Shown here one piece after another: positions 31,634-46,568 of a DNA stretch of 64,000 bases; position 1 is the stretch's first letter; every line of letters starts with the position of its first letter. Location of the stretch: positions 62,001 through 126,000 of the forward strand of contig JARKOY010000173.1 of assembly GCA_029975555.1 (NCBI GenBank). Reading direction: 5' to 3'. A program made the translations under genes and the position numbers. Source of the stretch: Spirochaetia bacterium. GTDB taxonomy: Bacteria > Spirochaetota > Spirochaetia > Treponematales > Rectinemataceae. The notes under the pieces are model-generated. The model was not told the DNA's origin and searched no databases. It was given only the letters and a program-made list of their open reading frames with translations.

Positions 31634-31674
31634 CTTGCCGCAGACTGCAGCAGTCTGTATACGCTATCCCTATC

Positions 31675-31806
31675 TTCTCCGAACCGTACCGCCTACAGAA
31701 CCGGTCAAGGCTGGCTCCACGGCGAGCGGTCACAAGGCAGGGCGTTGTTCCGGCCTTACAGGTTGTTCGAGAAATCGGGCAGCCTCCCGTGTTTGGAAAG
31801 GAGAGA
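31675..31806 (+). ncRNA. Candidate Moco/Tuco-family riboswitch in the AOR operon leader
   Basis: The 3' part, GCCTCCCGTGTTTGGAAAGG (31782-31801), closely matches the conserved 3' end of the molybdenum-cofactor RNA motif as I remember it from E. coli moaA (CCTCCCGTATCTGGAAAGG). CACGG (31718-31722) can pair with CCGTG (31787-31791) in the position of P2. A GNRA hairpin, GTTCGA-GAAA-TCGGGC (31765-31780), precedes the core. Between them, CACAAGGCAGGGCG resembles the E. coli core but without its extra P3 arm, the form proposed to sense tungsten cofactor. TTCTCC (31675-31680) with GGAGAG (31800-31805) is one option for P1. Control of translation of the Fe-S/AOR operon is likely, since no terminator follows. 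Recognised from memory only. Confidence 0.6.
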
Positions 31807-31881
31807 CGAAGAGCCGCGACCATTGCGCTGGAGGCGGCGAATCGGATCACCGGGAAAAATCGAAAACTGGAGGCAGAAGCG

Positions 31882-41794: not shown

Positions 41795-43531
41795 TTACAA
41801 ATCCAGAGCCTTTGTCTCGATTTTTTCGAGCACGCGGGCGACAAACGCGTCGAGTGCGATGCCGTTTTCCTGCCCGCCTGTCCTGAGTCGGACCGAGACG
41901 GTGCGATCGTCCTTCTCTCGCTGGCCGAGGATGACCATGTAGGGAATCTTCTGGTTCTGCGCGTCGCGGATCTTGGCGTTCATACGCTCCTCGGAGAGCA
42001 TGGCCGTCGCCCTGATCCCTTTTCCTTTTAGAATGGCGGTCACTTCCTTCACGTACTCGTCGAACAAGGGTGCGACGGGAATCACGGCCACTTGCTCGGG
42101 GCTCAGCCACAGGGGAAAGGCACCCGCGGTGTGCTCGAGGTAGACGCCGAAGAAGCGCTCGATCGAACCCAGGAGCGCGCGGTGCACCATGTAGGGACGT
42201 TTGCGTTGGCCGTCCGAGTCGATGTACTCGATCTGGAACCGCTCCGACATGTTGAAGTCGAATTGGATCGTGGTCAATTGCCACTCGCGGCCTATGGCGT
42301 CCTTCACCTTGAGGTCGATCTTGGGCCCGTAAAAGGCGCCGCCGCCTTCGTCGATCTCGTAGGCCAGTCCTTCCTTCTCGATGGCCTTCCGCAGAGACTC
42401 GGTGGCCTGCTCCCAGCGGGCCGGGTCGCCCACCGCACCGTCTCCCTTGGGCTTGGTCGCGAGGTAAGCTTTGATTTCCTTAAAGCCCAGGGTCTTGTGC
42501 ATGGAGAGGGAGAAGCGCAGGACCTCCTCGATCTCGCCCTCGATCTGCTCGGGCGTGCAGAAGATGTGCGCGTCGTCCTGGGTGAAGCCACGCACGCGCA
42601 TGAGGCCGTGCAGAGCCCCCGCGCGCTCGTAGCGGTACACGGTGCCGAGCTCCGCCCAGCGCAGGGGCAGGTCGCGGTAGGAGCGGGTCTGGCTTTTGTA
42701 GATCATAATGTGGAAGGGACAGTTCATCGGCTTGATGTAGTAGTTGTCCTCGTCGATCTTCATGGGCGAGTACATGTTCTCCTTATAAAAGCCAAGGTGT
42801 CCCGAGGTTTCCCAGAGCCAACTCTTGCCGATGTGCGGCGTGAAAAGTATCTCGTAGCCGTTTTTGTAGTGCTCCTCACGCCACCAATCCTCGAGGGCGA
42901 CGCGGAAACGCCCCCCCTTGGGATGCCAGTAGATGAGGCCAGCGCCCGCCTCTTCGTGGGTCGAGAAGAGGTCGAGTTCCTTGCCGAGCCTGCGGTTGTC
43001 GCGCTTTTCAGCCTCCTCGAGCATCTTGAGGTAGGCCTCCAATTCGGCCTTACTCGCAAAGGCGTAGGCGTAGATGCGAGTGAGCATGGGGCGAGTCTCG
43101 TCGCCCCGCCAGTAGGCGCCGGCGAGGGTCTTCAGGGTGAAGGCGTCGGGCTTCAGTTCCCTGGTCGATTCGACGTGGGGGCCGCGGCAGAGATCGACAA
43201 AATCTCCTTGCCTGTAGATCGAGATGGTCCCCTCCTCAAGCCCTTCGATGAGCTCGAGCTTGAAGGGCTGATCGCGAAAAAGCTCCTTCGCCTGTTCCTT
43301 GGTCACTTCTTCGCGGACGAAAATCTGATCCTGCGCGATGATCCGACGCATTTCCTTTTCTATCGCGCGCAGGTCTTCCTCCGCCACGGGTTTGGGAAAC
43401 AGAAAATCGTAATAAAAGCCGTCTTGAATCGCAGGGCCTATACCGAACTTCACTCCGCCGTAGAGATGCTGCACCGCCTCGGCCATCACGTGGGCGAAGG
43501 AATGTCGTATCCTCTCAATATCAGCCGCCAT
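41795..43531 (-). CDS. thrS: Threonyl-tRNA synthetase without TGS domain
   Basis: A 578-residue class II synthetase. It starts directly at the second additional domain (R-H-S-F-A-H-V-M-A-E-A); the first 60 or so residues (TGS) found in most bacterial ThrRS are absent, as in Borrelia-type enzymes. The editing site Y-Y-D-F and HVESTRE region are present. The catalytic core has M-N-C-P-F-H near 272 (zinc Cys), R-Y-E-R-A-G near 316, and the H-R-A-L-L-G-S motif near 464. It charges tRNA-Thr. Expression is controlled by a T-box leader. Confidence 0.96.
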   Translation of the reverse strand: MAADIERIRHSFAHVMAEAVQHLYGGVKFGIGPAIQDGFYYDFLFPKPVAEEDLRAIEKEMRRIIAQDQIFVREEVTKEQAKELFRDQPFKLELIEGLEEGTISIYRQGDFVDLCRGPHVESTRELKPDAFTLKTLAGAYWRGDETRPMLTRIYAYAFASKAELEAYLKMLEEAEKRDNRRLGKELDLFSTHEEAGAGLIYWHPKGGRFRVALEDWWREEHYKNGYEILFTPHIGKSWLWETSGHLGFYKENMYSPMKIDEDNYYIKPMNCPFHIMIYKSQTRSYRDLPLRWAELGTVYRYERAGALHGLMRVRGFTQDDAHIFCTPEQIEGEIEEVLRFSLSMHKTLGFKEIKAYLATKPKGDGAVGDPARWEQATESLRKAIEKEGLAYEIDEGGGAFYGPKIDLKVKDAIGREWQLTTIQFDFNMSERFQIEYIDSDGQRKRPYMVHRALLGSIERFFGVYLEHTAGAFPLWLSPEQVAVIPVAPLFDEYVKEVTAILKGKGIRATAMLSEERMNAKIRDAQNQKIPYMVILGQREKDDRTVSVRLRTGGQENGIALDAFVARVLEKIETKALDL

Positions 43532-43558: not shown

Positions 43559-43864
43559 AAAAAAAAGCTCCATGGAACACGCCCGCACGTGAAACATGTC
43601 ACGTAAGGACGAATTCCGTGGAGCCCTCTTGCTCTCGGTAATCCGCGGTACCACCTTACTTCGGCTCCCCGCGACGGGGGCCGCTCTCTTCGCCAATAAC
43701 GCATGGCAGACGGTCTGCATTACTGCTGCGCGACAAGCAGGTTCACACAGACTGCTCGGGAGTGGTTTTCGCTGGAGCCCGGCAGGATCCTTCCACCCGC
43801 GACGCGCGGGATCCCTCTCTGTGCGCGAAAGCGTACCAACTACTCTTCTCCGTCAACGCATTTT
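43559..43864 (-). ncRNA. T-box riboswitch with Thr (ACC) specifier and terminator
   Basis: All main T-box elements are visible on the minus strand. Stem I starts with GACGGAGAAGAGTA (43841-43854), which holds the AGTA half of the loop E motif. The specifier loop GAAAACCACTCCCGAG gives codon ACC (43764-43766), a threonine codon. The T-box itself is GTAAGGTGGTACCGCGG (43643-43659), and CGTCCTTAC about 45 bases later can pair with GTAAGG to form the antiterminator. The competing terminator is GCTCCACGGAA/TTCCATGGAGC (43614-43624 and 43567-43577) with one mismatch, ending in eight T (43559-43566). Uncharged tRNA-Thr should stabilise the antiterminator and allow thrS transcription. The leader fills most of the 43532-43971 gap. 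Confidence 0.95.
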
Positions 43865-43869
43865 TTGTT

Positions 43870-43898
43870 ATTTTCCATATGATGCAAAGTGATGTCAA
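43870..43898 (-). promoter_or_regulatory. Promoter of the thrS T-box leader
   Basis: Minus strand consensus TTGACA (43893-43898), 17 bases, GAAAAT (43870-43875). The predicted +1 at about 43863 agrees with the start of the T-box stem I. Confidence 0.6.
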
Positions 43899-43971: not shown

Positions 43972-44289
43972 ATGGGAACGAAACTCACAGAGACGACGGA
44001 TACGCAGGAGCTGACGCGGGACGACCTTGAGGCGAAGGAGCCCGAAGAATACCGCGTCTATCTCATCAACGACGATTTCACGACGATGGAATTTGTGATA
44101 TCGATTCTCATGACGGTCTTCCACAAGAGCCTTCCGGAAGCGTCGAAGCTCACGTTGGAAGTTCACAGGAGAGGTCGTGGTATGGCAGGATTATACTCCT
44201 ACGACATCGCGATCACCAAAATCCAGCAAGTCCACGCAATGGCCAGACAGCGGGGATTTCCGCTCCGCTGTACAATGGAGAAGGCATGA
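43972..44289 (+). CDS. clpS: ClpS adaptor protein
   Basis: A 105-residue N-recognin. The fold begins Y-R-V-Y-L-I-N-D-D-F-T-T-M-E-F-V near 28, the binding pocket for N-terminal Leu, Phe, Trp or Tyr. A long variable N-terminal tail (residues 1-26) can enter ClpA. It delivers N-degron substrates to ClpAP. Its stop overlaps the clpA start (ATGA). No Shine-Dalgarno is seen. Confidence 0.94.
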   Translation: MGTKLTETTDTQELTRDDLEAKEPEEYRVYLINDDFTTMEFVISILMTVFHKSLPEASKLTLEVHRRGRGMAGLYSYDIAITKIQQVHAMARQRGFPLRCTMEKA

Positions 44290-46568
44290 AAGTAAGCCCT
44301 GAAGTACAGGCGATTTTCAACGCTGCATACAACGAAGCCAAGCTCCGGAGCCACGAATATCTCATGCCGGAGCATATACTCTTTGCAAGCCTCTCGTTCG
44401 AAAAGGTGCGCAATATTTTCGAAAACTGTGACGCCGACCTTGAGCAGATGAAGCGGAGCATCGAGGCGTACTTCGAACAGAAGATGCCCATCGTGCGCAA
44501 TGCCGAACCAATTCAGAGCGCAGGCTTTCAGGCGGTGATCGAGCGCGCAGTGATGCAGTCCCAATCCGCCGGCAAAGAAGAAGTGCAGATTCCTGACCTC
44601 GTCGTCTCGCTCTACGACGAGGAGCGCACCTATGCAGGCTATCTCCTTCGCAAACTCGGCATCAAGCGGCTCCAGCTGCTTGAAGTGCTCTCCCACGGGA
44701 TGAGCGACGAAGACATGGAAGCAGATTCGCTCCCCGAGGAAGAGACCGAAGAGCGCACCGAAGAGGGCGGCAGGGAGAAACACGCGGCAAAGCCTGGCGT
44801 GCTCGAACGCTTTGCGACCGATCTCACCGCGCTGGCCGCAGCCGGAAAACTCGAACCCGTCATCGGCCGCGAGGCCGAAATCGAGCGCACCATCCAGGTG
44901 CTCTCTCGGAGGCTCAAAAATAATCCTATCCACGTCGGAGATGCAGGTGTAGGAAAGACTGCCATCACCGAGGGTCTCGCGCAGCGCATTGCGGCCGGCG
45001 ATGTACCTCCCAAGCTTAAAGGCTACACGATTTGGTCTCTCGATATGGGCGCCCTGCTCGCGGGAACAAAATTCCGCGGCGACTTCGAAGAGCGCGTCAA
45101 AAAGGTCATCGACCTGCTCCTAAAAAAAGAGAAAGCGATCCTCTTCATCGACGAAATCCACACCATCGTCGGTGCGGGGGCCGTCACCGGCAGTACCCTC
45201 GATGCATCAAACCTGCTCAAACCAGCACTCACGTCGGGCAAACTGCGCTGCATCGGGTCGACCACCTACGACGAGTACAATAAGATCTTCGAAAAAGACC
45301 GGGCGCTCTCCCGGCGCTTCCAGAAGATCGACATCGTGGAGCCCTCCATCCCCGAAACCGTCGAAATTCTCAAAGGCCTCCGCTCCAAGTACGAGGAGTA
45401 CCACGATGTGCGCTACAGCGACGAGACGCTCGAAACCGCCGCCAAGCTCGCCGCACAGTTCATCACCGAACGCAAGCTTCCGGACAAGGCCATCGACGTC
45501 ATCGACGAGGCGGGAGCGCTCGCACGGATTCGTGCATACAAAGAGAACCGCGAATCAGAGGTCAAGACGATCGACATCACGCCACACGACATCGAGGTGG
45601 TCATCGCCAAAATTGCGCGGATCCCCGAACGCACGGTCACGTCCTCCGAAAAGGACAGACTCGCCACACTCGAAGGCTCGCTCAAGCAAGAAGTGTTTGG
45701 GCAGGATCATGCCATCGAGGTCGTCGTCAAGGCGGTCAAACGCTCGCGCGCCGGATTCAGGGCTCCCGACAAGCCCATCGCGAACTTCCTCTTCGTCGGC
45801 CCCACGGGCGTCGGCAAGACGGAGCTCGCGCGGCAGCTCTCCAAGCACCTGGGGATCGCGCTGCACCGCTTTGACATGAGCGAATATCAGGAAAAACATA
45901 CGGTGTCGAGACTGATCGGCTCCCCTCCGGGGTATGTCGGCTATGAGGAAGGCGGCCTTCTTACAGATGCCATCCGAAAAACCCCCAACGCGGTGGTTCT
46001 CCTCGATGAGATCGAGAAGGCGCATCCCGACATCTACAACATTCTGCTTCAGATCATGGACTACGCGACGTTGACGGACAATCAGGGCAGAAAGGCCGAC
46101 TTCCGCAACGTCATACTCATCATGACGAGCAACGCAGGCGCCCGCGATATCGGCAAGCCACTCATCGGCTTCGGAGACCAGAAGATCAGCGACTCCGCCC
46201 TCGACGAGGCCGTGGAGCGCGCCTTCAGTCCCGAGTTCCGCAACAGGCTCGATGCGGTGGTGCACTTCAACAATCTGCCCATGGACATCATCGAGCGCAT
46301 CGTCAAAAAAGCCATCGACGAATTCAGCGCCCAGCTCGCCGAGAAGCATGTCACGCTGAAGGTGGAAGACAGCGTAATTCGATTCCTCGCGGAGCGAGGC
46401 TATTCCCGCGAATTTGGTGCGCGCAACATCAGCCGCCTCGTCGAAGACCAGATCAAGACCGTGTTCGTCGACGAAGTGCTCTTCGGCAGACTGGAACACG
46501 GCGGCACCGCGGTGGCCCGCCTCGAAAACGACAAGATAGTCTTCGATATTTCGCCTCGGAATTTCTAA
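44286..46568 (+). CDS. clpA: ATP-dependent Clp protease ATP-binding subunit ClpA
   Basis: A 760-residue two-ring AAA+ unfoldase, the length of E. coli ClpA. An N-terminal repeat domain that docks ClpS (1-145) is followed by an acidic linker. The first ATPase has Walker A G-D-A-G-V-G-K-T near 217 and I-L-F-I-D-E-I-H. The second has G-P-T-G-V-G-K-T near 504 and V-V-L-L-D-E-I-E. The I-G-F tripeptide loop for ClpP docking is present in P-L-I-G-F-G-D-Q near 625. clpP is not in the window. No middle coiled coil, so it is ClpA and not ClpB/ClpC. Confidence 0.96.
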   Translation: MKVSPEVQAIFNAAYNEAKLRSHEYLMPEHILFASLSFEKVRNIFENCDADLEQMKRSIEAYFEQKMPIVRNAEPIQSAGFQAVIERAVMQSQSAGKEEVQIPDLVVSLYDEERTYAGYLLRKLGIKRLQLLEVLSHGMSDEDMEADSLPEEETEERTEEGGREKHAAKPGVLERFATDLTALAAAGKLEPVIGREAEIERTIQVLSRRLKNNPIHVGDAGVGKTAITEGLAQRIAAGDVPPKLKGYTIWSLDMGALLAGTKFRGDFEERVKKVIDLLLKKEKAILFIDEIHTIVGAGAVTGSTLDASNLLKPALTSGKLRCIGSTTYDEYNKIFEKDRALSRRFQKIDIVEPSIPETVEILKGLRSKYEEYHDVRYSDETLETAAKLAAQFITERKLPDKAIDVIDEAGALARIRAYKENRESEVKTIDITPHDIEVVIAKIARIPERTVTSSEKDRLATLEGSLKQEVFGQDHAIEVVVKAVKRSRAGFRAPDKPIANFLFVGPTGVGKTELARQLSKHLGIALHRFDMSEYQEKHTVSRLIGSPPGYVGYEEGGLLTDAIRKTPNAVVLLDEIEKAHPDIYNILLQIMDYATLTDNQGRKADFRNVILIMTSNAGARDIGKPLIGFGDQKISDSALDEAVERAFSPEFRNRLDAVVHFNNLPMDIIERIVKKAIDEFSAQLAEKHVTLKVEDSVIRFLAERGYSREFGARNISRLVEDQIKTVFVDEVLFGRLEHGGTAVARLENDKIVFDISPRNF

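Follow-up and report, generated by a model that had tools for sequence, protein, structure and literature searches.

The window (the whole stretch of 64,000 nucleotides analysed here, from a Spirochaetia bacterium) carries on its minus strand a thrS gene preceded by a structured leader. The encoded protein contains 578 residues organised in SAD, catalytic core and anticodon-binding domains, and a TGS domain was not found by the Pfam search. Divergently from thrS, clpS-clpA-like genes (43972-46568, plus strand, from the reading of open reading frames) adjoin the promoter of this leader. At a distance, the window also contains a Moco RNA (molybdenum cofactor) riboswitch (31665-31820, plus strand, 60.4 bits for a cut-off of 36), and the open reading frames, read by eye, suggest molybdopterin-type genes around 35-40 kb. 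The features of the thrS locus, in the direction of transcription, are:

43870..43898, minus strand: promoter, with -35 TTGACA (43898-43893), a 17-nt spacer and -10 GAAAAT (43875-43870) (consensus scan 10/12; conservation in the genus)
43602..43865, minus strand: T-box leader (RF00230), full length (cmscan, 102 bits; whole-genome search)
43764..43766, minus strand: specifier codon ACC (Thr), followed by A43763 and flanked by GAAA and CUCCCGAG (model and genus alignments)
43679..43755, minus strand: Stem II with S-turn (GAA...AGUA), F-box-like IIA/B element GCGUUA and the purine string AAGAG before Stem III (model alignment)
43660..43687, minus strand: Stem III, then AA (model alignment; fold; positions)
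43603..43659, minus strand: antiterminator, with helix A1 GUAAGG/CCUUAC, the 7-nt bulge UGGUACC (43653-43647) and helix A2 starting with a G-U wobble (fold)
43559..43628, minus strand: intrinsic terminator hairpin, which absorbs the antiterminator 3' strand, then U8 (43566-43559) (fold; covariation)
41795..43531, minus strand: thrS, with Shine-Dalgarno (SD) sequence AAAGGAG (open reading frame list; Pfam)

T-boxes are tRNA-sensing RNAs that are best known from Gram-positive bacteria. An earlier note, made from the sequence alone, had described such an element in control of thrS at 43559-43864, a span that correctly covers the leader and its terminator. The Infernal search that it had suggested matched RF00230 over the full length of the model (1-219) at 43865-43602, directly upstream of thrS, with an E-value of 2.3e-21 and a score above the curated gathering cut-off of 93 bits. 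At the scale of the genome (3.27 Mb, a draft assembly of 179 contigs), exactly one T-box was found, at this same place, and none elsewhere, where the note had advised looking.

All the elements that the note had listed, including the loop E half-motif, were recovered on the minus strand. The ACC triplet occupies the specifier position of the RF00230 model, as had been read, and is invariant in an alignment of nine members of the genus. The distal part of Stem I presents the AGAGA and GGUGGAA loop motifs (43822-43816 and 43798-43789), and the T-box core AGGUGGUACCGCGG lies at 43656-43643, the sequence GGTGGTACCGCG occurring only once in the whole window. Stem III is flanked by AAGAG and AA, which correspond to the RRRxG purine string and the trailing AA that, together with a G-U wobble at the base of A2, are features of T-boxes (PMC7583486). 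Finally, the TTGACA box indeed stands at the right distance from GAAAAT. The consensus score of this promoter is by itself near chance (1 found vs 0.5 expected); in the nine members of the genus that were compared, TTGACA never changes, whereas the spacer drifts.

Downstream of the core, the antiterminator partner UUCGUCCUUAC (43613-43603) and the terminator with its eight U, both announced by the note, were retrieved by computed folds, the hairpin spanning about 43628-43567. Without the 3' arm of the terminator, the RNA folds as a canonical antiterminator (-20.5 kcal/mol), and when this arm is present the terminator hairpin (-39.3 kcal/mol) takes over; the UGGN-ACC bulge thus belongs, as in T-boxes, to an antiterminator in competition with a terminator. 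Both folds are conserved among the nine genus members: 98.3% of cells are paired in the antiterminator, with two pairs changed on both sides, and five pairs are changed on both sides in the terminator, where 0 of 500 shuffles scored as high, these covariation counts being inflated by the relatedness of the sequences. The A2 G-U wobble is invariant in the same nine sequences, and sliding the helix partners in this alignment destroys antiterminator and terminator alike.

The RF00230 match directly upstream of the gene, the ACC specifier and the competing folds support T-box control of thrS. We therefore propose, with high confidence, that a Thr-specific class I (transcriptional) T-box riboswitch controls thrS in a spirochaete, and that it was inherited within the class rather than newly acquired. 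In the predicted mechanism, RNA polymerase would start near 43862 and transcribe Stem I, whose ACC would read the GGU anticodon of tRNA-Thr, for which the same genome contains one gene. The 3' end of an uncharged tRNA-Thr would dock on the UGGU bulge and hold the antiterminator, allowing read-through into thrS, whereas with charged tRNA the more stable terminator would form and transcription would end at the U8 run. Judging from sequence, tRNA binding is expected, and readthrough would follow threonine starvation.

One feature of the element departs from the usual scheme. The window bulge, UGGU, faces U73 of tRNA-Thr(GGU), a U-U apposition that does not pair, and the usual pairing between bulge and discriminator base is consequently missing. 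According to TBDB, the variable base (N) of the bulge pairs with the discriminator in most T-boxes, Trp and His being named exceptions (PMC7778990). As this is a majority rule with exceptions, discriminator pairing is not a defining feature and membership in the T-box family stands; no report of a Thr exception in spirochaetes was found within the searchable papers. The discriminator of tRNA-Thr(GGU) is U73 in all the 34 spirochaete genomes read with ARAGORN, and also in two named MAGs. Where the tRNA was also read, the bulges were UGGU in 21 cases (the window's included), UGGC in 2, UGGA in 8 and UGGG in 3, and only UGGA and UGGG are able to pair with U73. Most spirochaete thrS T-boxes thus share the UGGU bulge of the window, and a member of its own genus (G003) has UGGA. 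The related thrS T-boxes of Chloroflexi and Bacillota have UGGA, with U73 wherever their tRNA-Thr(GGU) was read.

This mismatch is the point in favour of considering the leader as a degenerate and non-functional T-box relic, a reading to which we give very little credit, since the promoter, the specifier and the bulge have been conserved, as have the two alternative helices, in which compensatory changes are seen. It might also mean that the element senses another tRNA, such as tRNA-Pro(UGG), whose A73 would pair with UGGU and which would be read through CCA, the +1 triplet. The tRNA-Pro(UGG) of this genome does have A73, and CC(A/G/C) occurs within the same loop, but it is ACC, not CCA, that the model aligns with its specifier; moreover, ACC is invariant and the base after it varies, the downstream gene is thrS, and spirochaetes with a UGGA bulge retain the same ACC. 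We consider recognition of tRNA-Pro highly improbable. The Thr-specific riboswitch would, in our reading, function in spite of the U-U apposition, and the conserved U73 mismatch offers a natural test of how much T-boxes need the discriminator pair.

A possible reason for the fixed U was sought at the SD sequence of thrS. GGUAC or GUACC, complementary to the bulge, is found there in 22 of 48 genomes with UGGU and in 0 of 32 others, for a background of 7 out of 318 when other genes of six genomes are taken. In families f4 and f5 (nine and five members), every member read has a bulge-complementary SD, in two different forms. Tree-aware pairs were not significant for this association, the independent changes being too few, and one Anaerolineae leader with a UGGA bulge also carries GGUAC at its SD. 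For these two reasons the complementarity remains a lead, and relatedness explains much of the association. The thrS SD of the window itself shows no complementarity to the bulge. In a scenario that we regard as unlikely, many spirochaetes would have given up the discriminator pair, U having been fixed at N for its part in a second pairing, between the bulge GGUACC and the thrS SD (GGAGGUAC or GGAGUACC). The ribosome binding site would then be masked by the T-box itself, with the SD and the tRNA end as competitors for one bulge. The genus of the window would represent a lineage in which U persisted although the SD pairing disappeared, and in which control depends on the terminator.

Two observations in relatives touch on the same subject. 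Six thrS T-boxes of f5 (L008, L019, L020, L184, L214 and L215) have a SD including GGUAC, complementary to the bulge, and are candidates for translational control, with no good terminator detected by a simple finder that misses long hairpins with short T-runs. At locus L192 (genome G022), the bulge is UGGC and the sequence before thrS contains UUGCC, in place of the UGGU and GUACC of related genomes, possibly through one compensatory change.

Considering the host, the spirochaete affiliation assumed by the note is supported by the nearest named ThrS proteins, which come from four Spirochaetota MAGs (62-73%), and by the ThrS tree. In this phylogeny, another analysis that the note had called for, the window ThrS lies inside a clade of Spirochaetota MAGs (SH-aLRT 100 for 16 rows, 99 for 22). 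FlaA (PF04620), a protein of the periplasmic flagellum, points in the same direction, as it is carried by relatives of the family and order and by 0 of 14 control genomes. FlaA was not found in the window's own genome (G000), in its genus (g1), or in G021 and G022; copy numbers of three to four were found in five further genomes of the family, and a loss of periplasmic flagella in the genus of the window is possible.

The note had regarded a T-box in a spirochaete as unusual and possibly acquired by transfer. The T-box is real, but the surprise is smaller than supposed, since T-boxes are widespread in the class. Of the 10 congeners sampled, 9 have one at thrS; overall, T-boxes were found in 39 of 59 relatives and, at the scale of the phylum, in 72 of the 393 genomes sampled, those 72 being almost all from one class and from many of its families. 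These counts are lower bounds, because weak matches can be lost. Most of the T-box loci read precede thrS, and the specifier of the thrS leaders is ACC wherever the motif scan could read it; the T-box core also precedes thrS in L021 and L023, two named MAGs of Spirochaetota, and most genomes of family f3 have no T-box. As the same switch lies ahead of thrS in many other spirochaetes, we consider it as an old feature of the class and not a recent acquisition.

That this genome, or its genus, took up T-box and thrS recently from Firmicutes or Chloroflexi could be imagined from the T-boxes that Chloroflexi and Bacillota have before related thrS genes (ThrS 57-59% identical). The distribution in congeners, relatives and many families, and the position of the window ThrS deep in the spirochaete clade, contradict it and make its probability minimal; recent transfer was rejected for practical purposes. 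An ancient transfer, by which the ancestor of the class would have gained the thrS T-box, with later losses (e.g. in most f3 genomes), is a proposal that we hold at slightly less than an even chance. Indeed, the ThrS proteins of the class form clades of their own, and T-boxes occur in each of the two, T-boxes are almost absent from the Spirochaetota sampled outside the class, whose ThrS proteins are different, and Chloroflexi ThrS with T-boxes are placed just across the midpoint root of the tree. This tree is however unrooted, its key branches have SH-aLRT values of 86-87, and its 13 label changes fit gain or loss, which are not separable from them. Ancient transfer concerns the origin only and is compatible with the thrS T-box riboswitch proposed here.

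Some of the T-boxes found precede other genes. In family f10, nine loci (L101-L104, L159-L161, L210 and L211) have a specifier read by eye as UAC (Tyr) and precede a sodium/solute symporter, an acyl-CoA ligase or a tryptophanase/tyrosine phenol-lyase-type enzyme, perhaps for the control of tyrosine salvage. Four loci of family f13 (L109, L176, L196 and L199) have a GAGUGG core, and their specifiers appear on visual reading to be GUC (Val) or AUC (Ile). The gene that follows encodes an acyl-CoA ligase extended at its N terminus by a stretch of XRE-like appearance; the best match of L176 is MbcS, below its cut-off, and salvage of branched-chain acids into Val/Ile would fit. Finally, a T-box lies directly upstream of trpB in another genome of the same order (L015, G036). 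In this class, the T-box appears as an old trait of patchy distribution that is in most cases attached to a single gene.

In Bacillus subtilis too, the specifier of the thrS T-box is ACC. T-box control of thrS is found in most Firmicutes, and a 2008 survey reported T-boxes in 0 of 6 spirochaete genomes (PMC2494555); tRNA-sensing control is here extended to a class of diderm bacteria where that survey had none. Spirochaetes are not named in the main text of the 2020 T-box database paper, nor in the parts seen of a 2020 review, and no description of spirochaete T-boxes was found in the full-text literature, the search covering papers available without subscription. Such elements may well have entries in the T-box database and in Rfam, and we make no claim of first discovery. 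The window element resembles the thrS leaders of Firmicutes (RF00230) by its architecture, its competition between antiterminator and terminator and its target gene, and differs from them by its host phylum, by a bulge N that is U despite U73 of tRNA-Thr, and by being the sole T-box of its genome. It also resembles the Chloroflexi and Bacillota MAG loci L025-L029 and L031, which have a T-box upstream of related thrS genes (57-59% identity), but those whose bulges were read (L025-L029) carry UGGA, matching U73. Translational T-boxes are known in Actinobacteria (ileS; PMC1262725), and some spirochaete relatives (f5), in which no good terminator was found, possibly share with them the masking of the SD; the element of the window differs in having a terminator and in lacking an SD that could pair with the bulge.
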